DNA from: a virus
Direction: 5' to 3' (one strand)
Length of the DNA stretch: 54,333 nt
Virus record (IMG/VR): IMGVR_UViG_3300028597_000016
Location: 1 to 54,333 of that record
The stretch's first letter is position 1. Every line of letters starts with the position of its first letter. Of the stretch, positions 5,240 to 41,000 are shown piece after piece. A program made the translations under genes and the position numbers. Under the pieces are notes generated by a model. The model did no database searches and had not been told where the DNA came from. It worked only from the letters and a program-made list of their open reading frames with translations.

Positions 5240-5457
5240 TGGCCTCGCCCGAGGAGGAGCGCAAGTACGAGGCTCGGGTCAACCTGTCCCTGACCATCGC
5301 GGAGATCGTAAAGCTGCTGGTCGTCGATGGTGACGACGAGGCTGTGGACGCGAAGCTCAAGGCGATGAGCAAAGGTCAGTTCGACGCGTACGTCTTCGTC
5401 ACTGGGATGTTGGTCGGAGCCTGGCGCAAGGTCGAAGCGGAGAGGACGCCGGGATGA
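5239..5457 (+). CDS. Hypothetical helical protein (72 aa)
   Basis: The TGATG overlap sets the start at 5239. The product is a short helical protein with a hydrophobic middle (VNLSLTIAEIVKLLVV) and a second one near the end (AYVFVTGMLVGAW). It resembles its downstream neighbour in length and general plan. Function unknown. Confidence 0.65.
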   Translation: MASPEEERKYEARVNLSLTIAEIVKLLVVDGDDEAVDAKLKAMSKGQFDAYVFVTGMLVGAWRKVEAERTPG

Positions 5458-5675
5458 CCCCCGAAGAGAGGACGAGGTTCCGGGCGGACATCGCCGACAA
5501 GGCGGGTACCGTGCTGACTTCGGTCCTGGCCAATGACTCGGTAGAAGAGGCCCGCGTGCTGATCGCGGGTATGTATCCGGTCGAGCGGGGCGGCCTCGCG
5601 CTCGGCGTGGTGACCCTCACCAAACTGCTCGAAGAGCACTACGGCACCAGCCTCAGAGAAGCTATTCTGGGCTAG
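5454..5675 (+). CDS. Hypothetical helical protein (73 aa)
   Basis: ATGA overlap with the upstream stop. The sequence is amphipathic and helical (TVLTSVLANDSVEEARVLIA; GVVTLTKLLEEHYG). It is the last gene before a strong hairpin at 5706, so probably ends the transcription unit that begins at 4850. Confidence 0.65.
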   Translation: MTPEERTRFRADIADKAGTVLTSVLANDSVEEARVLIAGMYPVERGGLALGVVTLTKLLEEHYGTSLREAILG

Positions 5676-5705
5676 CACACCCCCGTTGTGCATACGAAGA
5701 ATCAC

Positions 5706-5738
5706 GGCCGGGGAGGTCACGCCCCGATCTCCCCGGCC
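5706..5738 (+). terminator. 10-bp perfect GC hairpin
   Basis: GGCCGGGGAG (5706-5715) pairs perfectly with CTCCCCGGCC (5729-5738) over a 13-nt loop, 30 bp after a stop codon and 5 bp before the tRNA-like gene. There is no U-run, as is common for actinobacterial terminators. It may end the upstream unit or mark the 5' side of the tRNA transcript. Confidence 0.55.
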
Positions 5739-5743
5739 ACTTC

Positions 5744-5842
5744 GCCCCCTCTAGCTCAACGGGCAGAGCACCCGGCATATCGAATAGATGTTCGGTGTGG
5801 GGTTCAACCGGGAGATTGCGCGTTCAAGTCGCGCGGGGGGCA
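5744..5842 (+). tRNA. tRNA-like gene with 32-nt anticodon loop
   Basis: Acceptor GCCCCCT (5744-5750) pairs with GGGGGGC (5835-5841), followed by A5842. The D arm GCTC/GAGC (5754-5757, 5766-5769) has a canonical loop AACGGGCA. The anticodon stem CCCGG (5771-5775) pairs with CCGGG (5808-5812), the variable loop is AGATT, and the T arm is GCGCG-TTCAAGT-CGCGC (5818-5834). One extra base lies between acceptor and D arm. The anticodon loop is 32 nt instead of 7 and holds a 9-bp hairpin (5776-5784 with 5791-5799, three G-T pairs). I cannot assign an anticodon. Either an interrupted tRNA, a tRNA mimic, or a decaying gene. Confidence 0.6.
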
Positions 5843-5875
5843 CTGTCAAGAACTGCCACTGACCAAGGAGAACCC

Positions 5876-6580
5876 ATGGCTACCTCCTATGAGGTGCAAG
5901 TAGACAATCCACACGAATTCCTACGACAGCGGACACAGCGGTTCCACGACACCCACGTGGTCGAGCCGACGGTGAGCCTGGGAGTGAATCCAGAAACACA
6001 GGAGGTCGAGCGCACTCCCGTACCGACCTCTCTCCAGGAGCTGATCACCTCGGCGAACGAACAGGTGGACGAGGACGAAGAGCCGGAAGCCGAGTTGGAG
6101 CGTCACCTCGACCAACCTGTCCGAGACGTCCTGCCCGAACTGATCACCAACAACCGGCATCTCGACCGCAGTGAGATAGTCGGACTGCTCAGCGGGCTGG
6201 AGAACGCGCTCGACGGTACCGAGGATCGGGCTGTCATTGTGGCGACCGCGCAACTACTCATCGACTCGCGCCAACTGCAAGAGCGCAACTGGCACTACTC
6301 CGTGGGCCGGGAGCTGGCCGCGCTCTCCTACGTCACGGACAAGACGCCGGAGTACGTTGACGCGTCCACGTTCGACAACGACTTCATCACGCTGGCCGAC
6401 AACTGGGACGACTGGGCCACGGAGCACGCCGACGAGCGGATCCGCAACGAGGTCAGCATCCCGGGTGACCTTAACTACCACTACGAGTTCGACTACGAGA
6501 GCTACGCCAGCGATCTGCGCCAGGAGTATGACGTGGTCGACATTCTGGACAACTCCGACGTCCTGATCTTCTCCGCATGA
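5876..6580 (+). CDS. Acidic protein, weak ArdA-like C-terminus (234 aa)
   Basis: AAGGAGAACCC precedes ATG 5876. The protein is strongly acidic. A disordered N-terminal third is followed by a helical core (residues about 85-150). The C-terminal part (LADNWDDWATEHADERI, then a tyrosine-rich FDYESYASDLR stretch) recalls the last domain of ArdA antirestriction proteins, which are DNA mimics with a Y-D-x-x-x-x-A-x-D-L pattern. The acidity fits a mimic, but the N-terminal ArdA signature is not visible, so this is only a hint. It lies directly after the first tRNA-like gene. Confidence 0.7.
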   Translation: MATSYEVQVDNPHEFLRQRTQRFHDTHVVEPTVSLGVNPETQEVERTPVPTSLQELITSANEQVDEDEEPEAELERHLDQPVRDVLPELITNNRHLDRSEIVGLLSGLENALDGTEDRAVIVATAQLLIDSRQLQERNWHYSVGRELAALSYVTDKTPEYVDASTFDNDFITLADNWDDWATEHADERIRNEVSIPGDLNYHYEFDYESYASDLRQEYDVVDILDNSDVLIFSA

Positions 6581-6583
6581 GGC

Positions 6584-6874
6584 GTGAGCATCGACCGGCG
6601 GGAGTTCCAACGGCTCTGTGAGCTGGCCAAGGCCAATGGCTGGCGGGTGGAACTCACGCAACACCAGAACGGGAAGCTGCGCAAGGTCGTCAAGGGTAGT
6701 CACGTGCACTCGGTGTTCTTCCCTCCCGACCCTGCGCAGCATCCGGTCCCTGTGGCCATCACCACCAGCCCGACCGCGCGCCGGAACGTCTACGCCGGAC
6801 TCCGTAGGGCAGGGTTGGAGCCCGATCCGTGCCGTCAACAACGACGCGCTGCCAAGCAGCGCAGACAGGAGTGA
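6584..6874 (+). CDS. Small basic protein (96 aa)
   Basis: GTG start 3 bp after the previous stop. The fold looks alpha-beta-beta-beta-alpha: FQRLCELAKANGWRVELTQ, then KVVKGSHVHSVFFP, then a helix NVYAGLRRAGL. The G-S-H step and basic tail recall HicA-type dsRNA-binding-fold proteins, but no HicB partner is adjacent, so the resemblance is weak. Ends with a basic Arg/Gln-rich tail. Confidence 0.65.
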   Translation: MSIDRREFQRLCELAKANGWRVELTQHQNGKLRKVVKGSHVHSVFFPPDPAQHPVPVAITTSPTARRNVYAGLRRAGLEPDPCRQQRRAAKQRRQE

Positions 6875-6875
6875 C

Positions 6876-7049
6876 ATGAAGTGGCCCTTTAGGCGCAGTG
6901 GCGAAGGACTCGAACGGCTCAAGGCAGTGGAGCAGGAGATCGAAGAGAAGCGACGGAAACTGAATGAGAACAAGGGAAAAGGTCCGGAACGCACCCGCCC
7001 GATCGAACAAGAGATTGCCGACCTGAAGAAACGTCTAAAGGGCGAGTAG
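6876..7049 (+). CDS. Small coiled-coil protein (57 aa)
   Basis: ATG 6876 starts one base after the upstream stop. A basic N-terminus (MKWPFRR) is followed by two charged heptad-like helices (LERLKAVEQEIEEKRRKL; PIEQEIADLKKRLKG) with a short linker, so a helical hairpin or dimeric coiled coil is expected. Function unknown. It precedes tRNA-like DNA. Confidence 0.6.
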   Translation: MKWPFRRSGEGLERLKAVEQEIEEKRRKLNENKGKGPERTRPIEQEIADLKKRLKGE

Positions 7050-7058
7050 CCCCCACTG

Positions 7059-7167
7059 GGAGATCCCGGGCACCAGGGAACGCTGTAGGGGGTCCCGCAG
7101 CGTGGTGAACGGCCGGGCGCGCTCTTGGGAAGGGGCACGCGGGGAGGTTCGACTCCTCCCATCTCCA
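7059..7167 (+). tRNA. tRNA-like element (109 nt), irregular middle
   Basis: GGAGAT (7059-7064) pairs with ATCTCC (7161-7166), with A7167 as discriminator. The T arm GGAGG-TTCGACT-CCTCC (7143-7159) is canonical. Between them CGCTG/CAGCG forms a 5-bp stem with a 12-nt loop, and TGGTGAAC (7103-7110) resembles the positions 8-15 segment of leucine-type tRNAs but lies in the wrong place. No standard cloverleaf can be drawn and no anticodon assigned. The rest of the 175-bp gap 7050-7224 holds one further small hairpin (GCACGG/CCGTGC, near 7172-7188). Confidence 0.35.
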
Positions 7168-7224
7168 CGCCGCACGGCCCACCCGTGCAGCAGAGAACCC
7201 ACACCACAGAAAGGCACTGCCACC

Positions 7225-8865
7225 ATGGCACGAATTAACTTCTTCGACGCCGACCAGGCCGCTGACCAGGTCGTCGACGAGCACTCCCACCGCTCCACCC
7301 AGGTCACCCAGGTCGACGCCGAGCGCGCCGCGTTGCTGGCCACACTGGACAAGCTGGGCGGGCTGTCGACCAACACCGACGACAAGCTCGTCTACCAGGG
7401 CGACCGGTTCGTCTTCCCGAGCCGGTACAAGGACAACATCCCGGGGATCTACAACTACCTCAAGGAGTACGAGCGGGCGCAGAACGCCCAGACCAGCTTC
7501 GTTCGCTACTTCCCGGCCCGCCCGAACGACGGTGCCGCCGCGATGGAGCGTGCGATGCGGCTGCTCTTCGGCTCGACCGGCGCGGGCGTCCCGACGTTCA
7601 CCATGTTCGGCGCCAACCCGCCGCAGCGTAAGGACGTCAAGGTCAGCCTGACCGAGACCATCTCCGTTCCGTGGGGCCAGATCTCGTTCGAGCCGCTGGA
7701 GGCCGTGTTCGAGACGCACGCCACCAACAACGAGGACGGGCAGTACGTCTTCGCGCTCTCGGTCACCGCACCGAAGCGGCAGGAGAAGCGCATCCGTGCG
7801 TTCTTCGACCTGATCGACCGCGAGATCGCGCTGAACTCGATCTACCGGGGCAAGGCCATCTCCGTCAACGGCGGAGGCACCTCCGAGCCCAAGTTCATCG
7901 ACCTGTCCGGTGTGGACCCGAACCGCGTGATCTACGCGGCCGACGTCTACCGCCTGCTCACCGCAGGGCTGTGGGCGCCGATCAAGTACGCCGAAAAGCT
8001 CAAGGCACAGGGCCAGTCCCTCTCGACCACGACCCTGCTCGAAGGACCGTTCGGCACCGGCAAGTCGCTGGCCGGTTACCTGACCGCCCAGATCGCGGTC
8101 GCGCACGGCTGGACCTACATCCACGTCGAGCCCGGCGAGCCGATCGAGAAGGCGCTGGAGCTGGCCCGCCAGTACGGCCCGGCTGTGGTCTGGATCGAGG
8201 ACGTCGACATCGTCGCCGGGGGTAACCAGGACCGCAAGCGTGTGGTCAAGGTGCTCGAAGCCCTCGACGGCGTGACCACCAAGGTGGACGGCGGGCTGAT
8301 CGTCGGGATGACGACCAACCACGTCAACTCCCTCGACGCCGCCGTGCTCCGGCCCGGCCGCATCGACACCATCGTGCACGTCGCGGAGCCGGACCGCCCG
8401 GCGTTCGAGGGGATCATCAAGGCCACCCTGCCGGGTGACCAGTCGGCGAAGCTCGACTTCGACGAGCTGTGGGAGTCCATGGGCTCGACCTACGTGGTCG
8501 AGGACGGGGTGTCCACGGTGGAGACCTCGGGCATGCTGCCCGCGTTCATCGTCGGCGCCGTCAAGGACAGCGTGCGATTCGCGCTCTCCCGCTCCGGTGG
8601 CGAGGACCCGACCGTGACCACGGTGGACATCCTCGACGCCGCCCGCTCCCTGCGCCGGACGTTCGACCTCCAGCAGGCCAGCCTCAACGCCCCGAAGCCG
8701 GTCGACCCGGTGGGTGTGGCTCTGGAGACCGCCGTCGAGCGCGTGATGGAGCGTGCCGTGCCGGTGGACGCCGTCGACGGCCAGCTCCGCTACGGGTCGG
8801 CCTTCTCCTTCAAGGCTGCGAACAACGACCACGTGATCCGCAAGCAGAAGCACGCCCAGCAGTAA
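7225..8865 (+). CDS. AAA+ ATPase (546 aa)
   Basis: ATG 7225 follows AGAAAGG with a 12-bp spacer; upstream in-frame starts lie in the tRNA-like element and are rejected. The N-terminal 240 residues are not recognised. The AAA+ module has Walker A GPFGTGKS (G274-S281), Walker B VVWIEDVD (E325, D326, an ED rather than DE order), sensor-1 MTTNHVN and the second-region-of-homology sequence LDAAVLRPGRID with its arginine finger. A helical lid follows. This is the FtsH/p97/BCS1-like clade of protein remodellers, but there is no protease domain. The next gene encodes an SPFH membrane protein, the usual partner of membrane AAA+ enzymes. Confidence 0.9.
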   Translation: MARINFFDADQAADQVVDEHSHRSTQVTQVDAERAALLATLDKLGGLSTNTDDKLVYQGDRFVFPSRYKDNIPGIYNYLKEYERAQNAQTSFVRYFPARPNDGAAAMERAMRLLFGSTGAGVPTFTMFGANPPQRKDVKVSLTETISVPWGQISFEPLEAVFETHATNNEDGQYVFALSVTAPKRQEKRIRAFFDLIDREIALNSIYRGKAISVNGGGTSEPKFIDLSGVDPNRVIYAADVYRLLTAGLWAPIKYAEKLKAQGQSLSTTTLLEGPFGTGKSLAGYLTAQIAVAHGWTYIHVEPGEPIEKALELARQYGPAVVWIEDVDIVAGGNQDRKRVVKVLEALDGVTTKVDGGLIVGMTTNHVNSLDAAVLRPGRIDTIVHVAEPDRPAFEGIIKATLPGDQSAKLDFDELWESMGSTYVVEDGVSTVETSGMLPAFIVGAVKDSVRFALSRSGGEDPTVTTVDILDAARSLRRTFDLQQASLNAPKPVDPVGVALETAVERVMERAVPVDAVDGQLRYGSAFSFKAANNDHVIRKQKHAQQ

Positions 8866-8873
8866 CCTGAACC

Positions 8874-8903
8874 GCCCCGCCGGGAGTAGGCACCCGGCGG
8901 GGC
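8874..8903 (+). terminator. 11-bp perfect GC hairpin after AAA+ gene
   Basis: GCCCCGCCGGG (8874-8884) and CCCGGCGGGGC (8893-8903) are perfectly complementary with an 8-nt loop AGTAGGCA. It lies 8 bp after the AAA+ stop codon and 4 bp before the next tRNA-like element. There is no U-run. The GTAGGCAC octamer here recurs in two other hairpins (4766, 16331). Confidence 0.6.
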
Positions 8904-8907
8904 ACCT

Positions 8908-9011
8908 GGGGGTGAATGCCGGAGAGCGCGAAAGCAGGTTCGACTCCTGCGTCCAGACGGTGCCTGGTGAACCGAGACGTCACGCGGCGGGTTCGACTCC
9001 CGCCACCCCCA
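8908..9011 (+). tRNA. Type II-like tRNA element, possible Ser(CGA)
   Basis: GGGGGTG (8908-8914) pairs perfectly with CACCCCC (9004-9010), with A9011 next. The T arm is GCGGG-TTCGACT-CCCGC (8987-9003). A second 5-bp stem with 7-nt loop, GCAGG-TTCGACT-CCTGC (8934-8950), sits where the anticodon arm belongs and would give anticodon CGA, but its loop is identical to the T loop and lacks a purine at 37. The TGCCGGAG D region suits a serine tRNA. The variable region is about 36 nt, roughly twice the normal type II length. Possibly two fused tRNA remnants. Confidence 0.4.
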
Positions 9012-9039
9012 CGCTCTGCCACACCCAGAAGGAGAACCC

Positions 9040-9969
9040 ATGGTTGCACTTTTCATTCTCACGCTCCTGATCCTTGGAGCCGTGATCGCCTTCGCCTGTA
9101 TGAAGGCGGCGCGAGACCCTGATGCCCGCTCCGTTGCCCGGTTGACGGGAGTGATCCTCTCGGTCCTTTCGGTCGTCACGCTGGCGCTGGCCAGCTTCAC
9201 GCACACGAAGTCCAACGAGATCAGCATCAACCACAACTTCGGCACATACCAGGGGACGACCGGGCCGGGCATCACGTTCGTCGGCCCGTTCACCCAGTCG
9301 GAGAAGTTCACCACCCGGATTCAGACCCACAAGGTCAAGAAGCACAAGGTCACGCTGAAGGCCGAGAAGGAAGGTGCGTCCGGCGCGCCCGCCACGGTCT
9401 GGTACACGATCCGGTACCACATCGACGGGACCAAGCACGCCGAGAAGATGTGGCGGCAGTACCGCAACTTCGAGAAGGTCACGGACGATCTGGTCGTGCC
9501 CGAGTCGAAGACGACCGCCAACGAGGTGTTCGGCGCGTACACCCCCGCCGAGTCCCAGGCGGGCGGCAACCGGCGGGCGCAGGGCAACAAGCTGCGCGAC
9601 GGGCTGAACAAGGCTCTGGATGACGACGGCATCGTGATCGACTCCGTCAGCGTCACGACGGTGGACCTCCCGCAGGACGTCGAGGCTCGCCTCTCCGCCG
9701 TGCAGAAGGCCGCTGCCGACGCGCAGAAGAAGGAGATCGACGCGAAGTCCCGCCAGGCGCAGGCCGCGATCGACGCCCAGACCCGCTTGGACACCGCCAA
9801 GAAGGACAAGGCGACGGCTGCTGAGCAGGCCGCTGCCGACCGGTTCCGCAAGAGCACGGTCACCCGCGAGACCCTGGTCCAGGAGTGCTTGCGCCTGGCC
9901 GAGAAGTTGAACCAGCCGCTGAACTGCAACTACTACATGACCAACCAGTACGCGCCTGTTCCGCGATGA
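9040..9969 (+). CDS. SPFH/band-7 (prohibitin-like) membrane protein (309 aa)
   Basis: AAGGAGAACCC precedes ATG 9040. Two hydrophobic segments (about residues 2-21 and 32-50) anchor the protein. A band-7/SPFH domain follows (about 55-200), with the typical FGTYQGTTGPGITFVGPF entry and the VDLPQDVEARL turn. An alanine-rich coiled coil comes next (about 205-280, AAADAQKKEIDAKSRQAQ type), then a short tail. Family members form large membrane rings and often regulate AAA+ proteases, as HflKC does FtsH. Here the neighbour is an AAA+ ATPase without protease, so the pair may remodel host membrane proteins or organise a membrane site. Confidence 0.88.
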   Translation: MVALFILTLLILGAVIAFACMKAARDPDARSVARLTGVILSVLSVVTLALASFTHTKSNEISINHNFGTYQGTTGPGITFVGPFTQSEKFTTRIQTHKVKKHKVTLKAEKEGASGAPATVWYTIRYHIDGTKHAEKMWRQYRNFEKVTDDLVVPESKTTANEVFGAYTPAESQAGGNRRAQGNKLRDGLNKALDDDGIVIDSVSVTTVDLPQDVEARLSAVQKAAADAQKKEIDAKSRQAQAAIDAQTRLDTAKKDKATAAEQAAADRFRKSTVTRETLVQECLRLAEKLNQPLNCNYYMTNQYAPVPR

Positions 9970-10039
9970 TGGACCGGTCGTCCCTGCCTCTTCCCCGTTG
10001 TGGTGACGGGCGAGCATCAGGGGGCAGGGGCGACCCCAA

Positions 10040-10111
10040 GGAGGTGTCCGGGCATAGCAGACCGATCGGTTGCTGGCCGGATCTGATGGAGTTCGAGTCT
10101 CCTCACCTCCA
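10040..10111 (+). tRNA. 72-nt tRNA-like gene, possible GCU anticodon
   Basis: GGAGGTG (10040-10046) pairs perfectly with CACCTCC (10104-10110), with A10111 and CC next. GGAG-TTCGAGT-CTCC (T arm) has a T-T mismatch at its base. The length is near canonical. A central stem GATCGG/CC(G)GATC with a one-base bulge encloses loop TTGCTGG, which would present GCU (Ser, AGC), although a serine tRNA should have a long variable arm. The D arm is only three pairs and lacks the GG of normal D loops. Confidence 0.4.
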
Positions 10112-10265
10112 CCGGCTCCCGCCGAGTGAGTAGATAGTGACTCGGTAGTGCCCCCTTGACTAAGGGGCGCGGCCAGGCCGACGGGTCTGGTGTCCGTCCA
10201 CACTGACCAGGGCAACTCGGACTGGAGCGGCAAGTGGACGTCCGGAGGGCAGCCGTACTCCGGGT
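10112..10265. other. Non-coding segment with several hairpins
   Basis: No gene is supported here. Visible stems are CCGAGT/ACTCGG (10122-10145), CCCCTT-GACT-AAGGGG (about 10152-10167), GTCCAC/GTGGAC (about 10195-10239) and CCGGAG/CTCCGG (about 10241-10262). Together with the tRNA-like genes on each side this makes a 429-bp RNA-rich gap (9970-10398). A promoter for the next gene run could lie here, but none is clear. Confidence 0.4.
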
Positions 10266-10365
10266 GCGCATGGTGGAACGGCACTATCCCCAGGCATCGC
10301 CCCCGTGGACCAGGGATCCGATGTCGAGTAGAGGGATCCTCGTTCGAGGCGAGGCATGCGTACCA
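10266..10365 (+). tRNA. Leucine-type tRNA-like gene with encoded CCA
   Basis: GCGCATG (10266-10272) pairs with CATGCGT (10355-10361); pairing can extend outward to 10 bp (GGTGCGCATG/CATGCGTACC). ACCA follows, so the CCA end is encoded. The T arm CCTCG-TTCGAGG-CGAGG (10338-10354) is perfect. TGGTGGAACGGCA (10271-10283) matches the positions 8-21 segment of many leucine tRNAs. The expected anticodon stem ATCCC/GGGAT (10286-10290, 10313-10317) encloses a 22-nt loop rather than 7, and partly competes with the D stem. No anticodon assigned. Confidence 0.45.
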
Positions 10366-10398
10366 CCCCTTCCCGTACCACACCGAAGAGGAGAAACG

Positions 10399-10710
10399 AT
10401 GAAGTTCCTGACCATTCAGCAGGGCCGGTACACCGACGGCCAGCTCCCCTACCCGCTCCACGCCAACGAAGACGGCTTCATCGGCCAGCAGGGCTTGTGG
10501 GACGGCAAGCTGTACAAGATCGTCGGCGCCCAGGACGCGGTCGACATCCAGCGGATCGACACGTACTGGCGTGAGATCTGGAAGAACCCCGAGCAGGCCG
10601 TCGGCAAGTTCCTGGTGACGGCCGACGTGGACGGCAACCTGTCGAGCTGGGAGTCCCCGGTCGAGTCGGTTCGTCCGCAGGAACTCGACGAATCCTTCAT
10701 GGAGGCGTGA
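10399..10710 (+). CDS. Hypothetical protein (103 aa)
   Basis: GAAGAGGAGAAACG precedes ATG 10399. The sequence looks globular, with aromatic-rich beta segments (KFLTIQQGRYTDGQLPYPLH) and an acidic C-terminus. It starts a tightly overlapped run of four small genes leading to the ParB-like gene. Function unknown. Confidence 0.75.
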   Translation: MKFLTIQQGRYTDGQLPYPLHANEDGFIGQQGLWDGKLYKIVGAQDAVDIQRIDTYWREIWKNPEQAVGKFLVTADVDGNLSSWESPVESVRPQELDESFMEA

Positions 10711-11120
10711 TGACCGAAATTTACGCAGATCTCGGAGGCGAGGTGAATGCGGCGCTCAAGGAGCGCATCTTGAGCTTGGAAGTAGGCCACAACACGGCGG
10801 TGTGGGTGCGCCTAGGTCCGCCGGTCGGCACCATCACGATGCCCGACGGCCAGGAAGGCGAGCTGATCGGCGCGTACGGCGAGCACATCGGCTGGGTCGT
10901 CCCCGGGACCGTGGTGGAACGCCAGGGCAGCGGCTTCGGCAACGCGACCACACGCCGCTACTACTTCCGCGCCGTGGTGGAGGACGGGGAGCGCAAGGTA
11001 CTGGTCAGCGGCCAGGTCCACAGCGTGATCGGCCTGGCCTACGTGAAACGCCTGGTAGACCGGGCGGACCCGAAGGCCAAGGACGCCCCGCGCGACAATT
11101 ACAGCGGGAGGTACCGATGA
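10710..11120 (+). CDS. Hypothetical beta-rich protein (136 aa)
   Basis: TGATG overlap gives ATG 10710. After a short helix, residues about 25-110 are predicted mostly beta strand with many Gly and Val (AVWVRLGPPVGTITMPDGQE; HIGWVVPGTVVERQG), like a small barrel. The C-terminus is basic. No known family. Confidence 0.7.
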   Translation: MTEIYADLGGEVNAALKERILSLEVGHNTAVWVRLGPPVGTITMPDGQEGELIGAYGEHIGWVVPGTVVERQGSGFGNATTRRYYFRAVVEDGERKVLVSGQVHSVIGLAYVKRLVDRADPKAKDAPRDNYSGRYR

Positions 11121-11293: not shown

Positions 11294-11625
11294 TGCCCTA
11301 CGTCGGCTTCCACCCCGATATCGATCCCGGCTACGAACGTGCCCGAAAGGGCGGCAAGAAGATGCGTGGCCGGGCCATCGAGGTCATTCCGAATCAGTCG
11401 ATGTTGCAGCGTATTAGCAACGTCTACGGTGAGTACCTGGCACACGGCCGGTACTTGATCGGATCGTGGGAAGACACTCCGGCCGACATGCTCAATCCGC
11501 CCCCGCCCGACAAGGTGACTGCCTACGGGTGGTCAACGCACAAACCACTGGTAGTGTACTACCTGACTGCCTGGCCGACTCAGCCACAGCCGTGGCCGGA
11601 TACCGGCCCACCCCCGAGAATGTGA
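11293..11625 (+). CDS. Hypothetical protein (110 aa)
   Basis: TGATG overlap sets the start. A basic N-terminal stretch (RARKGGKKMRGRAI) is followed by an aromatic, proline-rich C-terminal half (PPPPDKVTAYGW; PTQPQPWPD). No motif recognised. It lies 6 bp before the ParB-like gene. Confidence 0.65.
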   Translation: MPYVGFHPDIDPGYERARKGGKKMRGRAIEVIPNQSMLQRISNVYGEYLAHGRYLIGSWEDTPADMLNPPPPDKVTAYGWSTHKPLVVYYLTAWPTQPQPWPDTGPPPRM

Positions 11626-11631
11626 GAACCC

Positions 11632-12552
11632 ATGACCAGTCCACGCATCAAATACGAGACGCGATGGATCACCCCTGACAGCGCCAAGGAGTACTTGGAG
11701 CTTCAGGTTGCCAACCGCTCGCTCGTCTGGGGCGTCGTCCGCAACTACGCCCGGGACATGCTGTCTGGAGACTGGCTCCAGAACGGCGAGAACATCAAGA
11801 TCAACCCCGACGGGTTCATGCTCGACGGGCAGCACCGCATGCAGGCCGTCATCCTGGCCGGGAAGATGTACGCCGACAACCCGGATGAATACGACGAGCC
11901 TTTCGAAGGCATGTTCTTCGAGTTCGCGCTCAACATCCCGGACGACGCCCGACAGTCCATGGACATCGGCAAGAAGCGCACTCTCGCCGACGAGATGGCC
12001 TTCGAAGGTGCCGAGAACTCGGGGCGTGTGGCTCCGATCGTGAGCTGGCACATGGCCTACCTGAATGGCAACTACACCAACGCTGGCGGCAGCTCCTACC
12101 GGCCGACTCAGGCCAAGGCGCTGGAGTTCTGGCGGGGGAACAAGAGCCAGTACTACACGACCATGCTGCGTGGTTATGACGCGACGCGGCAGGGTCTGGG
12201 CTCGACGGCGTCGATGGGTACGGCCTACCACATCCTGCGCAACAAGTTCGGCGACGAGATCGCCGACCGGTTCTGGGATCTACTGGTGACCGGCGCCAAC
12301 ATGCAGGTCGGACACCCGATCCTGCTGCTGCGCAACGTGTTGCTCCGGAAGAAGTTCAACCGGAAGACGACGTTCGCCCTGATCTTCAAGACTTGGAACT
12401 CCTGGATCGACGGCCGGACGCTGAAGGACGCGCCGTACTTCAAGACCGAGGTCACCAACAAGAACTTCCCGTTCCCCCGTGACCCTGCCGACAAGAAGGT
12501 GCCCAACCCCGACTTCGCCGACCAGGGCATCGAGCAGGAGGACGAGGAATGA
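11632..12552 (+). CDS. ParB-like/DGQHR domain protein (306 aa)
   Basis: GAGAACCC leads to ATG 11632. Residues about 12-80 form a ParB/Srx-type domain: WITPDSAKEYLELQ, YARDMLSGDW, NGENIKINPDGFMLDGQHRM. The DGQHR box is the family signature, seen in ParB nuclease-like and DndB-like phage proteins. A mainly helical C-terminal region follows (residues about 120-260). Such phage proteins are usually annotated as ParB-like nucleases; neither DNA cleavage nor partition can be shown from sequence. Overlaps the next gene by 4 bp. Confidence 0.8.
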   Translation: MTSPRIKYETRWITPDSAKEYLELQVANRSLVWGVVRNYARDMLSGDWLQNGENIKINPDGFMLDGQHRMQAVILAGKMYADNPDEYDEPFEGMFFEFALNIPDDARQSMDIGKKRTLADEMAFEGAENSGRVAPIVSWHMAYLNGNYTNAGGSSYRPTQAKALEFWRGNKSQYYTTMLRGYDATRQGLGSTASMGTAYHILRNKFGDEIADRFWDLLVTGANMQVGHPILLLRNVLLRKKFNRKTTFALIFKTWNSWIDGRTLKDAPYFKTEVTNKNFPFPRDPADKKVPNPDFADQGIEQEDEE

Positions 12553-15737: not shown

Positions 15738-16259
15738 ATGGCCAACGAGAAGGCCATGTGGCAGGCGCTGCTACAGATGGCCGAGCGGAAGGGCTTGGAG
15801 TTCACCCGGATGGCAGCCGGTCTGGGCGCACAGATCCGTGACGGTCGGGTGCGCTTCGACGTCAGCCGCACGGCCACCGAGATGCGATCTGAACTTCCGA
15901 CGACCCGGGACATGGATGTGCTCAGGGGCCAGGTCGGCTCCCAAGGATCGATCCGCAAGAAGCTGGTAGACCTGGTTACGCCAGTGGTCGCCGCTGCCCC
16001 CCAATCGCACGTCACGACAGATGTGGTCGGTATGAGCGTCCAGGCAGGCAAAGATCTGGACCGGGCGGCGAACTTGATCGGCCAAGCAGAGGGGAAGAAG
16101 CGCACCGCTCTCGCCATGGTTGCGCAGATCGAGGACGAGACCGAGCAGGCCGCACAACTGATGATCAGAGCTGAGAAGGCGCTCGCGTCTGCCAACGCGA
16201 TGACCGTGCAGATCGAGGTACGGATACGGCGGGCGGTCTCGGACATTGATGGGGTCTGA
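15738..16259 (+). CDS. Helical coiled-coil protein (173 aa)
   Basis: AGGGAGGAAC lies upstream of ATG 15738. Nearly the whole chain is predicted helix, with long hydrophobic-repeat stretches at residues about 90-165 (TALAMVAQIEDETEQAAQLM; AEKALASANAMTVQIEV). It follows the beta-propeller gene by 15 bp and may form a stalk or trimerising partner for it; that link is inferred from position only. Confidence 0.7.
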   Translation: MANEKAMWQALLQMAERKGLEFTRMAAGLGAQIRDGRVRFDVSRTATEMRSELPTTRDMDVLRGQVGSQGSIRKKLVDLVTPVVAAAPQSHVTTDVVGMSVQAGKDLDRAANLIGQAEGKKRTALAMVAQIEDETEQAAQLMIRAEKALASANAMTVQIEVRIRRAVSDIDGV

Positions 16260-16294
16260 GGGTAGACTGGACGTAGTACGCCCGTTAGTCTGAA

Positions 16295-16353
16295 CTCTTC
16301 CCCGCCGTCGGGGAGGGGGCGCGGCGGGGCGTAGGCACACTGCGCCCCGTCGC
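16295..16353 (+). terminator. Tandem GC hairpins
   Basis: CTCTTCCCC/GGGGAGGGG (16295-16303, 16310-16318, two G-T pairs) is followed by GCGGCGGGGCG/CGCCCCGTCGC (16321-16331, 16343-16353, one G-T pair) with loop TAGGCACACTG. They occupy the 126-bp gap 16260-16385. Probably a terminator pair ending the 14652-16259 unit. TAGACT near 16263 could be a -10 box but lacks a partner. Confidence 0.55.
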
Positions 16354-16385
16354 TGCCATAAGAGTTACACGTACCTGGAGCAACC

Positions 16386-16907
16386 GTGACCCCTCCCCCG
16401 ATTTACGTCCATGCCTGCAATCTCTACGCAGCCTTCGAGGGTGCCGCACACGAGGTGACGGACGAGAAGGTGGCGCACGACTACGGCGTCCCTGTGGGCG
16501 CGAAGTTGTTCGTCGGCCACTGGTCCACCACGTTCACGAACAAGACCGACTACCCCGACCTGCCCGGCGAGTCCACGCAGCAGAAGGCATATGCCTTCCT
16601 CCAGAACACCGGCTGCCTGGAAGTACTTCGTCCGGGCGGGCGTGACTACCCCGGCGTGATCATCCTGCACCGGCCGCCGACCCTGAAGGACGCCACCGAC
16701 GCGCCCAGTGACACCCGGGCCACACGCGCCGGGAAGCTGGGTGTGGTCGAGACCGCCGTCGAGGGGCACACCGTCAGGATCGGCAACCTGGAAGAGGCCG
16801 TAGAAGTCCTCAGCCAGCGGCAGGACGCGATCGTGCGGTCCGTCGAGGTGGAGCTGATGAAGCTCTCGGCCCGGATGGACGCCGCACTCGACACCAAGAC
16901 GACCTAA
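16386..16907 (+). CDS. Hypothetical protein with C-terminal coiled coil (173 aa)
   Basis: GTG 16386 follows CTGGAGCAACC. The first 110 residues look globular and include GVPVGAKLFVGHWSTTF and a Pro-rich loop. Residues about 120-173 form a heptad-like helix (LEEAVEVLSQRQDAIVRSVE). It sits between two hairpins, so may be transcribed alone. Function unknown. Confidence 0.7.
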   Translation: MTPPPIYVHACNLYAAFEGAAHEVTDEKVAHDYGVPVGAKLFVGHWSTTFTNKTDYPDLPGESTQQKAYAFLQNTGCLEVLRPGGRDYPGVIILHRPPTLKDATDAPSDTRATRAGKLGVVETAVEGHTVRIGNLEEAVEVLSQRQDAIVRSVEVELMKLSARMDAALDTKTT

Positions 16908-16912
16908 ATGAA

Positions 16913-16957
16913 GAAGGCGACCTCCCCGGAGAACCCATCAACAGGGAGGTCGCCTTC
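16913..16957 (+). terminator. 14-bp perfect hairpin
   Basis: GAAGGCGACCTCCC (16913-16926) is perfectly complementary to GGGAGGTCGCCTTC (16944-16957), 6 bp after a stop codon. The 17-nt loop contains GGAGAACCCAT, the same string used as translation leader elsewhere, which is curious. The remaining gap to 17071 shows no gene. Confidence 0.65.
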
Positions 16958-17071
16958 ACCCACCGCGCCCGAGCCCCTGCCACGAAAGCTCTCGCGCAAC
17001 CACAGAAAGACGCCTGACCAAAGCCGCCTCAAAGCGGAACGATACATCGAACTCGATACAAGGGAGAACCC

Positions 17072-17356
17072 ATGCCCGACACGACCCCCCATACCAACGT
17101 GCATACGTTCCTGGTCGCACAGCCGGGGGTGTGGATGCCGGTGACGATGAAATCCCCGATCCCGGAGCCGAGCACCTGGGAGCAGTACGACGAGTTGATC
17201 GCGCGTGCGTCCGAAGACCTGGGTGTTCCCTCGCAGTACGTCAAGCTCATCGGGACGATCGAGCTGGTCGACGAGCCGTGGGTCGAGCCTCGCAAGGAGA
17301 GCCCGATCGTGGTTCCGAACAAGAACCTGATCGTTCCGCCGGGGGTGAAGCGATGA
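17072..17356 (+). CDS. Hypothetical protein (94 aa)
   Basis: GGGAGAACCC precedes ATG 17072. The protein has a short beta-rich N-terminus, a helix (WEQYDELIARASEDLG) and a Pro/Val-rich C-terminus. No known family. It starts a run of four coupled genes ending at 18117. Confidence 0.7.
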   Translation: MPDTTPHTNVHTFLVAQPGVWMPVTMKSPIPEPSTWEQYDELIARASEDLGVPSQYVKLIGTIELVDEPWVEPRKESPIVVPNKNLIVPPGVKR

Positions 17357-17475
17357 ACGAGAAGGGCTTCGACGTCTTCTTCACGCTGGTGTTTCTGATC
17401 GCTGGCCTGCTCTCGGTAGCGTTCGTCGGAACGCTGATCTGGGGGATCGTCAAGCTGATCAACCACTACACATGA
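17353..17475 (+). CDS. Single-pass membrane peptide (40 aa)
   Basis: ATGA overlap at 17353. A 26-residue hydrophobic segment (FFTLVFLIAGLLSVAFVGTL and beyond) makes up most of the protein, with a short charged N-terminus. It is too short for family assignment, but the composition and coupling support a real membrane peptide. Confidence 0.6.
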   Translation: MNEKGFDVFFTLVFLIAGLLSVAFVGTLIWGIVKLINHYT

Positions 17476-36115: not shown

Positions 36116-37161
36116 TAGTAGGGGTACCAGCCATTCACGGCCATGTGGCTCAGGCCCGGCGTGAATCCGTTGGTGAGCACGCCGTTGTCCGACGTACGGA
36201 CCTGGACCTGCGCGCCGGAGGGCACACCACGGCCCCACAGCCCCCGCAGACCCCAGTCGTAGTAGCCGTCACAGGAGAAGAAGTCCGCCGCCGGGAATCC
36301 GGGCGGCAAGTCGATCAGCATGGTCGGCCCGGCAGGCACGGTCGAGCCCGCACCGTTGAACAGGAACACCGCGCGGAAGTAGATCAGCCGGATCGCCGGG
36401 ATGGCCTTGTAGAAGCCCGTCCGCGAACCGGTGGCGCCCATGTTGAAGCCGGACGGGAGCGACGGCGTGTACGTGCCCTCGCGGACCACGGGAACGGTCT
36501 CCCACACCCCGGCGGTGCCGTTCCAGATCTTGCTGACGTCGTCGTTGAGCTGGTGCGCTCGCTGGCCCGGCCGGATCGTTCCGCCCGGCGGCAGGTAGAA
36601 GAGGTTGGGTACCTCCATGTAGCCGCCGACGGCGTTCACGTACGGCGCCAACCACGTGATGTTGCCGGTGTTGATGCTGGTCACGCTGGAGTTCACGGCG
36701 ATCTGCGCGATGGCTACCGAGTTGGCGTCTGCCGCCGGGAGCACAGGCGAGCCTGCCGGAGTACCGGTCTTCACCTCCAGTACCCAGTCGTTGATCGCGC
36801 CGGAGTACTGCGCGTCGCGCACGCGCGCCTGCACCAGGTCCAGCCGGTTGAGCCCGGGTCCGGGAGCTGTGGCCACAGAGATGGTCTTGTCCGCGTCGTT
36901 GTGGCAGACGTATACGCCCTGGGTACCGCTCTCCGTTCCCTGAATGAAAACGGTTCCCTGCCGCACGACCACAGCCATGGTGGGCGAGCCGGTCTGCGTG
37001 ACCGCCATCCGGTTGCCGTGCTCCGGGTGCACGCCCGCGCGCGAGGTGAACCCACCGCCCAGGAAGTGCGTACCGAGCAAAGCCCCGACCGCCCGGCGGA
37101 ACACGCTGGCACTGTGGTCCGTGCGCGCCTGCATGTACGCGGGCGGATTGATTTCTGCCAT
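36115..37161 (-). CDS. Minor tail/baseplate protein (348 aa)
   Basis: GGGGAGGAACGTA precedes ATG 37161. The N-terminal 170 residues (MQARTDHSASVFRRAVGAL; VRQGTVFIQGTESGTQGVYV) match the beta-rich baseplate-like proteins often found after Dit genes. The C-terminal half (TYTPSLPSGFNMG; RLIYFRAVFLFNGAG) looks like a jelly-roll carbohydrate-binding fold. Probable tail-tip protein. Confidence 0.8.
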   Translation of the reverse strand: MAEINPPAYMQARTDHSASVFRRAVGALLGTHFLGGGFTSRAGVHPEHGNRMAVTQTGSPTMAVVVRQGTVFIQGTESGTQGVYVCHNDADKTISVATAPGPGLNRLDLVQARVRDAQYSGAINDWVLEVKTGTPAGSPVLPAADANSVAIAQIAVNSSVTSINTGNITWLAPYVNAVGGYMEVPNLFYLPPGGTIRPGQRAHQLNDDVSKIWNGTAGVWETVPVVREGTYTPSLPSGFNMGATGSRTGFYKAIPAIRLIYFRAVFLFNGAGSTVPAGPTMLIDLPPGFPAADFFSCDGYYDWGLRGLWGRGVPSGAQVQVRTSDNGVLTNGFTPGLSHMAVNGWYPY

Positions 37162-37174
37162 TACGTTCCTCCCC

Positions 37175-38059
37175 TTACCGCCACGCCGACCGGTAGATGA
37201 TGTCCATGTGCGTGGCTCCTGCGCTGCCGCCTTCTACGTTGAACTGGATCGAGTTGGTACCCGGTGCCAGATCGAACCAGGACGGTCGTCGCAGTTTGTC
37301 ACGTACGTTGGAAACGCCCCAGGCTGTGCTGTAGAAACGCACGGTCCGCGCCTCGGAGTCGATCTCCAGGTAGTCAGTCGTCGTGTCCACCAGGATGTCG
37401 AACGCCATCTCGTCGCCCGTGGTGGTGTTCACCACGTGCGGATTGATGTATGGGCCGTACATTCGGAACTTGACCGGAGTCGAGCGGTTGCCCGCATTCA
37501 CGATCGCGGCCGGGAAGCTGCCGACGGTGATACCGCCGAAGCCGACATCGAAGCTACGGTCGAATCCCACCCCGGTCTGAATCAGGTTCGAGACCGTCAT
37601 CGTCTTGATCGACTCGTTCTCCGAGTAGATCCGTGGGTCGCCCGCGATCGCGTTGAACTGGATCTCGCACATTCCCAGCCGCCGGAGCTGGGTGATCGAA
37701 TAGCGGACACCCTGGGGCTTCACCCAGAGCATCCGCCCACCGACCTTCGGAGCCCGCATGTACAAGGGGAGCGGGACTTCGCTCGGTGCCCACTCTCCCT
37801 TCAGCCGGTCGAGGGTGGTCTCCGTGTTGCTCTCTTCGTCGTACAGCACCCCGCTCAACACGATCGTTCGTGCCTGCTCGTAGACGCTGTCGACGTACCC
37901 GCCGTCGCGTCCGTCCCGGTCCCGGATCGACGTCCGGAACGGCGCGGAGTCCAGCCCCTGGATCTCGCTCAGGTCGACGGCCGGATAGGTGATCTTGTTG
38001 TCGTTGATGATGAAGCCGGACGTGCCGAGCTGAAACGAGAAGTCGGTGGTCAGCGCCAT
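37175..38059 (-). CDS. Distal tail protein (Dit-like) (294 aa)
   Basis: The start shares a base with the tape-measure stop (TAATG). The sequence FIINDNKITYPAVDLSEIQGLD at the N-terminus, RDRDGRDGGYVDSV, and the later beta-rich C-terminal domain (SIQFNVEGGSAG) fit the siphovirus distal tail family. Dit proteins form the hexameric ring joining tube and tail tip. The place right after the tape measure supports this. Confidence 0.85.
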   Translation of the reverse strand: MALTTDFSFQLGTSGFIINDNKITYPAVDLSEIQGLDSAPFRTSIRDRDGRDGGYVDSVYEQARTIVLSGVLYDEESNTETTLDRLKGEWAPSEVPLPLYMRAPKVGGRMLWVKPQGVRYSITQLRRLGMCEIQFNAIAGDPRIYSENESIKTMTVSNLIQTGVGFDRSFDVGFGGITVGSFPAAIVNAGNRSTPVKFRMYGPYINPHVVNTTTGDEMAFDILVDTTTDYLEIDSEARTVRFYSTAWGVSNVRDKLRRPSWFDLAPGTNSIQFNVEGGSAGATHMDIIYRSAWR

Positions 38060-41000
38060 TACCCGATCACCTTCTCCAGCTCCATACCGAGCATCATCGC
38101 GTGTCGGCGCGGATCAATCTCCTGCGTGTAGACATTCAGCGTGATGTTGGACGACCGGCCGCCGCCGTAGCCGCCGACCGGCGCCAGTCCGGTAGCGCCC
38201 ATGTCCTGGTTCGCACGCTCGGCGTCCAGGTGCTGGACCAGCCGCTCGAACGCCTGGGTCTGGGCGACCGAGAGCACGCGCTCCGCTGAACCGGTCGCGT
38301 TCATCACGCTGGTCATGCCGGGCTGCAACAGCCCGCCGGAGTCCATCACCTGCTGGGCCACAGCCCCGCCCCGCTTGTAGAACGACAGGTGAACGTGGTC
38401 GGAGTGGTCACCCTGGCCGGGCACCGAGTACGGCCCCCAGCCGTCACCCATCGTGATTCGCTTGTTCCAGATGACGTACTTGGTGCCGTACGCGCCAGGG
38501 TGCTCGATGAACCACTTCGCGATGCCGTTACCCCGGGCGAGCTGGCTCGGGATCGCGGCGTTGTTCATGTTGTCGATGGCCTTGGGGAAGTGGTCCGACC
38601 AGCCGTACCCACTGACGTACGAGCCCATCGACATGCCCGGGTTCATGGCACGGATGAAGTTCGCAGCAGCCTGCACGTTCGGTGACCACGGTGGCTGGTT
38701 GCCCAGGTGTGGAGGCCATCCGTTCGGCTGTGGCGTGAAGCGTCCGGTACCGGCGTCGCCCGACCCGAAGCCGACCTTCTCCCCGATCCACTTGATGACG
38801 CCCTGGACCATCCTCTTACCGGCTTCCTTGGCCACGTTCGCCATTGCGCCGGAACCGGCCTTGCCCAGCTCACCGATGAACTTGTTGAGCACGCTGGCCG
38901 GGTTGATGTCGTTGACCACAGCCCCGGCCAACGGGTTCAGGCCACCAACCAGACCCGTGATCCAGTCCCAGGGGCCGTCCCCCATCCAGCTCTGCTTGGA
39001 CGCGGAGACCGCACCACCGTCAGCGAATGCCGCCCGCCCCCGTAGGACCGCCTTTCGCATGTTGTACATGGCCTGCTGGCCACCAGCCTTCTCGACTTCC
39101 TTCGCCGTCCACACGTGCTCGCCGCTGGAGAGCATGGCCGGAACCAGGTCATCCCTCGGACCGCCAGGCCCGTTGATCGCACCACCCGTAGCCATACGGG
39201 GCACGTGCACGTTCTGCGGCTGAACGTTGAAGACACTGGCTACCGCGTTGTACGCCTTCAGCAGGCCGTCGTCGATGACCGTGTTGACGACGAACTTCAC
39301 CGGCTCACGGACGACGTTCTGAATACGAGTCCACGCCGCCTGGATGGCGTTGACCCCGCTATTGAATGCGGTGACCACGGCCGAGAAGAAGCCCTGGATA
39401 GACGTACGAGCGTTGTTCAGCGTGCTGGACCAACCACCAGTGAACCAGGCCCAGAAAGACGAAAGCGCGTTACGAACGTCCGTGATGATCCGGCTCCACC
39501 CGTCGGTGAACCAGTTGAAGAACGAGGTCAGGGCGCTCCGTGCATCGGTGAGCACCTTCTGCCACCCACTGAGGAACCAGTTGAAGAAGGCGGTAAGTGC
39601 GCTCTGGGCGTCGTTCCAGGTGTTCTTCCACCCGGTGATGAACCACGTGAAGAAGGTCTGGGCGGCGTTCTTCGCGTCGGTGAGCGTGGCCGCCCATCCC
39701 TGGGTGAACCACACATCGAACGCGTTGTACTCGGCCTTCGCGTCGGTGAGGGTGTTCCGCCAGCCCTGCGTGAACCACACGTCGAAGTCGTTGTAGACGA
39801 CCTTGGCGTCCTCGAACGTCTTCTTCCATCCGCTGACGAACCAGGTGAAGAAGTCCTGCGCCGGACCCTTGGCGTCCGAGAACGTGTTGGTCCAGCCGTT
39901 CTTGAACCACGTCAGGAAGTCGTTCGCCGGAGGCTTGGCATCGTCGAACGCCTTCTTCCATCCAGCGGCGAACCAGTCCAGGAACGGCTGAAGGACACCC
40001 TTGGCGTCCGCGAATGCCCGCCCCCAGCCGTCGACGAACCACCGCATCTGTGGTTCGGCGTCCTGGAAAATCTTCTTCCAGCCATCGGCGAACCAGGAGA
40101 AGAAGTTCGTCGCCGGAGGCTTCGCCTCGCTGAAGGCCCGGTTCCAGCCTTCCTTGAACCAGTCAAGAAAACCGGTGAGGGTCTCCTTGGCGTCCTTGAA
40201 TACCTTCGTCCAGCCGTCGCCGAACCACTTAAGCACCGGCATGGCGTCGTTGAGGACGTTCTTCCAGCCGTCGAAGAACCACTTGATGATTCCCCACAGG
40301 TGGCCGAACCACCAGTTCACGGCGTCGTGGAACCACTCCACCTTGTTGTAGGCGAGCACCCACACCGCGATGAAGCTGCCGACGGCGAGGACGATCGCGC
40401 CCATCGCCCCCACACCGACGCCGATGATTCCGGCGAGCACCATCAACCCGCCGCCGAGAATGCCTACCGCACCAGCGGCGACCAGCAGCAATCCGGTGAT
40501 CACCGTGGCCCAGGCCAGGAAGTTCTTCGTCCCCTCGTCCTGGCGCTCGAACCAGGCGGCCAGCTCGGAGAGCTTGTTGATGATCTTCTCCAGAGCCGGG
40601 AACAGCGCCTCGCCCGCTTCGACGGCGAGGGCCTTCCACTGGTTCTTCATCTTCTCGTTGCGGACCGCGAGCGTGTCCGCCATCTGGCTGTACTTGTCCT
40701 CCAGGTCGCCGCCGGACTTGTTCATCCGGTCGACCATGTCCTTGAAGCTGTTCGCACCCGCGTCCGAGGCGAGTACCAAGTCCCAGAACCGGCGGGCCTG
40801 GATGTTGTTGCCGCTGCCCTTGAACAGCGCGTTGATCTCTTCGGCACGCCGGGCCGGGTCGAGCTTGGCCAGCTTCTGCTGGAGTTCGACCACGACATCG
40901 GCGAGCGGACGGAAGTTGCCCGAGGCGTCCCGGGCGTTGATGCCCATCTCCTTGAGCCGACCCACCACGGTCGGGTTGGAGAACAGGTCGAGAGCACGAC

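Follow-up and report, generated by a model that had tools for sequence, protein, structure and literature searches.

Anticodon-less tRNA-like elements between phage genes as putative RNA processing sites

An unusual tRNA-like element in a virus genome

The sequence analyzed here (the window) is the 54.3-kb virus record IMGVR_UViG_3300028597_000016 of the IMG/VR database, which carries early and replication genes on the plus strand and structural genes on the minus strand. Between two early genes (5454-5675 and 5876-6580) lies a transfer RNA (tRNA)-like element, here named E1, whose location at 5744-5842 (+) in a preliminary description of this DNA was correct. E1 folds into a full cloverleaf in which the acceptor, D, anticodon and T stems are all intact, but its anticodon loop is replaced by 32 nt containing a 9-bp hairpin, as had been described. 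The 7-bp acceptor stem and the 5-bp T-stem add up to 12 bp, the T-arm is GCGCG-TTCAAGT-CGCGC (5818-5834, +), and the discriminator is A, followed by C. The statement that all parts outside the anticodon loop are canonical holds for the stems and fails at the acceptor/D junction, where one extra nucleotide precedes the D stem: either G5744 pairs with C72, leaving 3 nt before the D stem, or a C1.C72 mismatch is present. The loop (CATATCGAATAGATGTTCGGTGTGGGGTTCAA) is flanked by CCCGG and CCGGG, and the inserted hairpin, CATATCGAA-TAGATG-TTCGGTGTG, occupies approximately 5776-5800 on the plus strand (within 1-2 nt). Deletion of any 25 contiguous nt of the loop never leaves U at position 33, in agreement with the preliminary description. 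Therefore, of the features of a decoding tRNA, E1 has the acceptor, D and T arms and lacks a 7-nt anticodon loop with U33. Its third acceptor pair is C-G, so the G3.U70 identity of alanine tRNAs is absent.

Scanning of a 401-bp region with relaxed filters, a check of the kind proposed earlier, matched E1 to the Rfam tRNA family RF00005 at 42.0 bits (gathering threshold 29; E-value 1e-7), leaving 31 nt at the anticodon loop as an insert outside the model; the Rfam scan of the whole window at default filters missed it. ARAGORN reported a spurious tRNA-Phe, with the GAA anticodon placed inside the inserted hairpin. The predicted fold energy of E1 is -46.8 kcal/mol (z -3.3). A GC-rich hairpin of 13 bp (5706-5738, +) ends 5 nt upstream.

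At least three, and probably five, tRNA-shaped elements without an anticodon are present in the window. A scan in which a T-arm had to stack on a 7-bp acceptor gave E3 and E5 besides E1, while E2 and E4, which are less certain, were picked up by eye with relaxed criteria on reading the remaining gaps. All five lie on the plus strand in gaps between early genes and have 12 nt from the T-loop to discriminator A, which is followed by C. E2 (7059-7167) has a 12-bp stack composed of acceptor GGAGAT/ATCTCC (6 bp) and T-stem GGGAGG/CCTCCC (6 bp), ending in A-CG. E3 (8908-9011) combines GGGGGTG/CACCCCC with a GCGGG T-arm, also ends in A-CG, and gives a sub-threshold match to transfer-messenger RNA (tmRNA). 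E4 (10040-10111) has GGAGGTG/CACCTCC, a 4-bp T-stem and one T.T mismatch at the junction, and still keeps the 12-nt spacing. E5 (10266-10362), with GCGCATG/CATGCGT and a CCTCG T-arm, is the only one of the five that encodes CCA. When intergenic location, sense orientation, 11-12 nt from T-loop to discriminator and a following A-C are considered together, E1, E3 and E5 show this geometry strictly and E2 and E4 in relaxed form.

The genes between these elements are also on the plus strand. The gene downstream of E1 (5876-6580) has a weak ArdA/antirestriction match; the list of open reading frames starts it inside E1 via GTG at 5795, and its likely start is ATG 5876, with AAGGAG upstream. An AAA ATPase gene (7225-8865) follows E2 and precedes E3, and an SPFH/Band 7 protein gene (9040-9969) lies between E3 and E4. 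Hairpins end 4 nt before both E3 (11 bp, 8874-8903, +) and E4 (a long one, 9976-10035, +). A second complete T-arm, GCAGG-TTCGACT-CCTGC, is nested in E3 at 8934-8950, without a matching acceptor. Neither a promoter-like site nor an E. coli-type terminator-like site on the sense (+) strand was found in 5400-10700.

The acceptor/T stack is retained among relatives

No DNA similarity of this region to known phages was found, and searches via the gene downstream of E1 and via the AAA gene returned no relatives; relatives were obtained via the terminase. When the tRNA model was applied to 50 whole records, many over-long or malformed matches were observed, in which the acceptor and T arm were kept, the D arm often so, and the middle parts were unrelated. 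Gaps and scanner matches were then counted in 22 records (the window and 21 relatives; 1.09 Mb). Scanning for a T-arm with a 7-bp acceptor yielded 32 matches, compared with 1.7 in shuffled sequences (27 versus 0 at a score of at least 22). The 28 strongest elements all lie between predicted genes, without overlap, on the strand of both flanking genes. Among 552 co-directional gaps, 29 contain an element in the sense orientation, versus one antisense and 0.1 in shuffled sequences.

Gene family 34, which occurs in 15 genomes, is immediately preceded by an element in at least six records (G015, G017, G020, G022, G023 and G032), and the alignment scan of this family returned only nine loci. These upstream elements have unrelated sequences and the same stack, and usually end 15-35 nt before the ATG. 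Throughout the group the anticodon arm is freely replaced and the acceptor/T stack is constant. Random decay of the stems in relatives, which the preliminary description had regarded as evidence against a functional element, was not seen; the 12-bp stack is the part that is kept.

Some relatives show further tRNA-like features. In G003 (5487-8414) and in G032 (5407-8560), several tRNA-like elements that differ from one another lie in a long non-coding stretch that is not directly followed by a gene. G007 (L021) carries two near-normal tRNAs (237-310 and 396-468), both of which have the CTA anticodon of amber suppressors and are reported by ARAGORN as Pyl, so that UAG readthrough is possible. 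In three larger genomes of 80-92 kb with related terminases (G030, G031 and G041), 11 to 34 tRNA matches each were found, mostly of normal length.

A compact form is widespread in cultured actinophages

A pattern comprising a T-arm, A-C-G, a Shine-Dalgarno sequence and ATG was used to scan IMG/VR, and 37 contigs were obtained, with one site that ARAGORN calls as a tRNA. Most of the sites are elements of 41-43 nt with a compact architecture: an acceptor of 5-6 bp, a GG linker, a T-stem of 5-6 bp, a T-loop and discriminator A, then CG; more generally, the 3' end of compact elements reads A-C-G/T. Elements occupy 75 of 270 gaps at these loci and none in antisense, counts that are biased by selection with the pattern itself. 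BLAST revealed unannotated compact elements in cultured Mycobacterium, Streptomyces, Gordonia and Corynebacterium phages, and no Rfam family matched the compact form at threshold.

In seven cultured actinophages, co-directional gaps of at least 50 nt were examined using the deposited gene coordinates. Compact elements were found in the sense orientation in 49 of 87 gaps, which is not a survey fraction because the phages were picked for a BLAST-found element; none was antisense, and 0.05 would be expected from shuffled sequences. By phage, the occupied gaps are 15/17 in VanLee, 11/15 in Cuke, 8/10 in Lika, 7/11 in Predator, 7/13 in Konstantine, 1/9 in PSonyx and 0/12 in the Microbacterium phage GardenB, in which no strict element was found and one T-arm structure was noticed by eye. 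GardenB (L232) has repeated long hairpins between small genes at 36664-39765; they are not tRNA-like and are perhaps another punctuation device. The model of the compact form (R1; short GG linker, no D or anticodon arm) also matches annotated coding sites in Predator (L229, 39207-39249) and Cuke (L231, 7437-7479 and 7720-7762), where gene starts may be misannotated.

Some further genes were noticed in these phages. The Gordonia phage VanLee (L235), which has the densest set of compact elements, encodes a Ro-like RNA-binding protein (15752-17368), the only Ro-like gene noticed, and the Corynebacterium phage PSonyx (L236) encodes an RtcB-like RNA ligase and a band-7 protein (9603-10781 and 11348-12172). 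A band-7 gene adjoins elements in the window as well.

Signs of selection on RNA structure

In an ungapped alignment of 17 compact elements, nine of 11 pairs have changed on both sides, and the covariation score is 0.721, compared with 0.156 for shuffled and at most 0.122 for slid alignments. The detector itself demanded pairing; therefore, the strand and shuffle controls, together with features that the detector did not use, carry the weight. Such features are consistent among the 49 isolate elements: discriminator A-C is present in 42, G1 in 45, A at position N-1 in 39, and GG in the linker, as in a D-loop, in 46 (32 expected), mostly at offset 3. With no limit imposed on helix length, 42 elements have 11-12 bp and four have 13, mostly followed by A-C. 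Moreover, a hairpin 3' of the element was found in 38 of 39 cases, versus 19 in shuffled sequences. The existence of the compact element class is well supported.

Discussion

The suggestion in the preliminary description that E1 may be another kind of tRNA mimic proved right; E1 is one of several elements with the same stack. In the early region, the acceptor/T coaxial stack, T-loop and A73-C74 are rebuilt again and again, and the anticodon arm is dispensable. The compact elements set this geometry systematically between early genes of cultured actinophages. Bacterial ribonuclease (RNase) P gauges the acceptor/T-arm stack from the elbow and cuts any RNA presenting such a stack (PMC4919913), and its non-tRNA substrates include tmRNA, plant-virus tRNA-like ends, phage C4 RNA and T4 gene 32 mRNA (PMC11143913). 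A stack of about 12 bp with a T-loop, as in an RNase P-type substrate, is present in the elements, and the 11-12 bp of the compact helices equal the distance measured by the bacterial enzyme. We therefore consider it fairly probable, judging from sequence, that the elements are tRNA-elbow mimics serving as punctuation, that is, RNase P and RNase Z processing sites between cistrons. They retain exactly the features that RNase P reads, are without those that the ribosome reads, and lie at the points where a polycistronic message would be split.

According to this proposal, transcription would run through the gaps to give a polycistronic early RNA; host RNase P would recognize the elbow and 12-bp stack and cut before G1, and RNase Z or another 3' nuclease would cut after the discriminator, so that each gene or gene pair would obtain its own mRNA. 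Flanking hairpins may protect the new RNA ends, and the hairpin in the anticodon loop of E1 would be neutral filler or an extra stabilizer rather than an intron. The ACG found in place of CCA fits RNase Z-type 3' maturation and is not ideal for RNase P. More broadly, there may be an even chance that widespread anticodon-less mini-tRNAs let many actinophages divide whole early operons by means of host tRNA-processing enzymes, the cloverleaf of the window being a long variant.

Several observations weigh against punctuation by processing. Both transcription and cleavage at the elements are themselves predicted, and the usual 3' sequence, ACG or ACT, is not the RCCA preferred by bacterial RNase P. 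E2 and E4 are detectable only with relaxed criteria, and the overall folds of E3 and E5 are no better than those of shuffles (z -0.45 and -0.78). The upstream hairpins, which are striking in the window, are not enriched group-wide (16/27 versus 14.2 in shuffled sequences), and the element region lies outside the two records nearest to the window, G001 and G013. The R1 model has no match in the window, and the assignment of long and compact forms to one functional class would follow from geometry, strand, position and 3' sequence, not from homology. Finally, G003 and G032 have several elements in long gaps, far from the next gene, and punctuation and release of an RNA are equally likely there.

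Such release is at the center of an unlikely but substantive alternative, in which the elements would be freed as small tRNA-like RNAs with a role in trans; they might, for instance, be decoys or sponges that bind host enzymes or defence toxins recognizing the tRNA acceptor or elbow. The retention of acceptor, elbow and discriminator without the anticodon, the presence of several elements per genome, and their tandem arrangement in the two long gaps agree with it. Against this, the elements keep to a fixed position shortly before ribosome-binding sites, recur at orthologous gene boundaries and occupy most gaps in some phages, all of which argues for action in cis. The preliminary description had also proposed a decoy for anticodon nucleases, which would require an anticodon loop; this is unlikely because the whole class lacks one and sits at fixed places between genes. 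We give somewhat less credence to elements that stay uncleaved and influence mRNA stability, transcription elongation or the start of translation. The short distance to the Shine-Dalgarno sequence and ATG and the extra downstream hairpins of the isolates (38 of 39) are in line with such a role, but a plain hairpin would be enough for it, and the T-loop, GG linker, A73-C74 and 11-12 bp would not be needed.

Two explanations concern E1 by itself. If E1 were a decayed phage tRNA gene that had received an insertion by accident and had nothing to do with the compact elements, this could account for its nearly whole cloverleaf, the many normal tRNAs of related large phages and the lack of a compact element in the window. 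This is improbable, as all four stems of E1 are perfect, the operon contains at least two further elements with an intact 12-bp stack and no tRNA body, and the elements of relatives share the stack and differ in the middle. Hardly any credence is due to a functional tRNA in which the hairpin would be a small intron that some unknown ligase or endonuclease takes out: the hairpin does sit in the anticodon loop, but no removal gives U33, no uninterrupted version was found in any relative, and the other elements hold no anticodon loop to restore. An intron-containing tRNA was rejected for want of an uninterrupted homologue or a plausible exon junction. The spliced or edited tRNA envisaged earlier is likewise disfavored, in that same-stack elements of relatives have unrelated anticodon regions and none looks like a tRNA plus an insert.

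No earlier description of these elements was found in the literature searched, of which coverage was partial, so novelty is not proven. Unannotated elements fill many gaps in well-studied cultured phages; hence, they matter for phage engineering as well as for annotation and models of expression, and RNase P and RNase Z could be studied on them as natural minimal substrates. The predicted cleavage is directly testable in Predator, Konstantine and Cuke (Mycobacterium smegmatis) and in Lika (Streptomyces lividans).

Comparison with known systems

The SAS/ESAS sequences of cluster K mycobacteriophages are likewise repeated between genes, near the starts of non-structural genes and in one orientation (PMC3203893), but they consist of a 13-bp sequence (GGGATAGGAGCCC) with an inverted repeat, which occurs at chance level in the window and in Predator. 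C4 antisense RNA (P1/P7) and T4 gene 32 mRNA are phage transcripts other than tRNAs that bacterial RNase P processes (PMC11143913); these are isolated cases, without a repeated intergenic tRNA-like module. The tRNA-like domain of tmRNA (RF00023) has an acceptor, a GG D-loop without D stem, a T-arm and no anticodon arm, and tmRNA is a known RNase P substrate. In contrast, the phage elements have no tag-peptide domain, are 40-120 nt long and occur in many copies per genome between genes. Membership in the tmRNA family was rejected: ARAGORN finds no tmRNA, Rfam matches are sub-threshold and limited to the acceptor and T-arm, and G3.U70 is absent, pair 3 being G-C or C-G in 17/17 compact elements.

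Repeated structured processing signals are also known from the early genes of T7, which are separated by RNase III sites, but those are long hairpins read by a different enzyme. The tRNA-like module of the bacterial Y RNA YrlA is another mimic of the tRNA elbow; it is permuted and Ro-bound, whereas the 5' and 3' ends of the phage elements are at the acceptor. Non-decoding tRNA-like elements cut by RNase P and RNase Z exist in mascRNA/MALAT1 and in the tRNA-like RNAs of gammaherpesviruses, which are single loci in eukaryotic systems. The likeness extends to mitochondria, whose transcripts are cut by RNase P and RNase Z at tRNA structures lying between genes; the marks there are functional tRNAs, while those of the phages lack an anticodon and lie in operons of bacterial viruses. 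If the proposed role is true, the tRNA elbow without its decoding part would serve phages time and again as a mark for processing between genes, much as whole tRNAs serve mitochondria.
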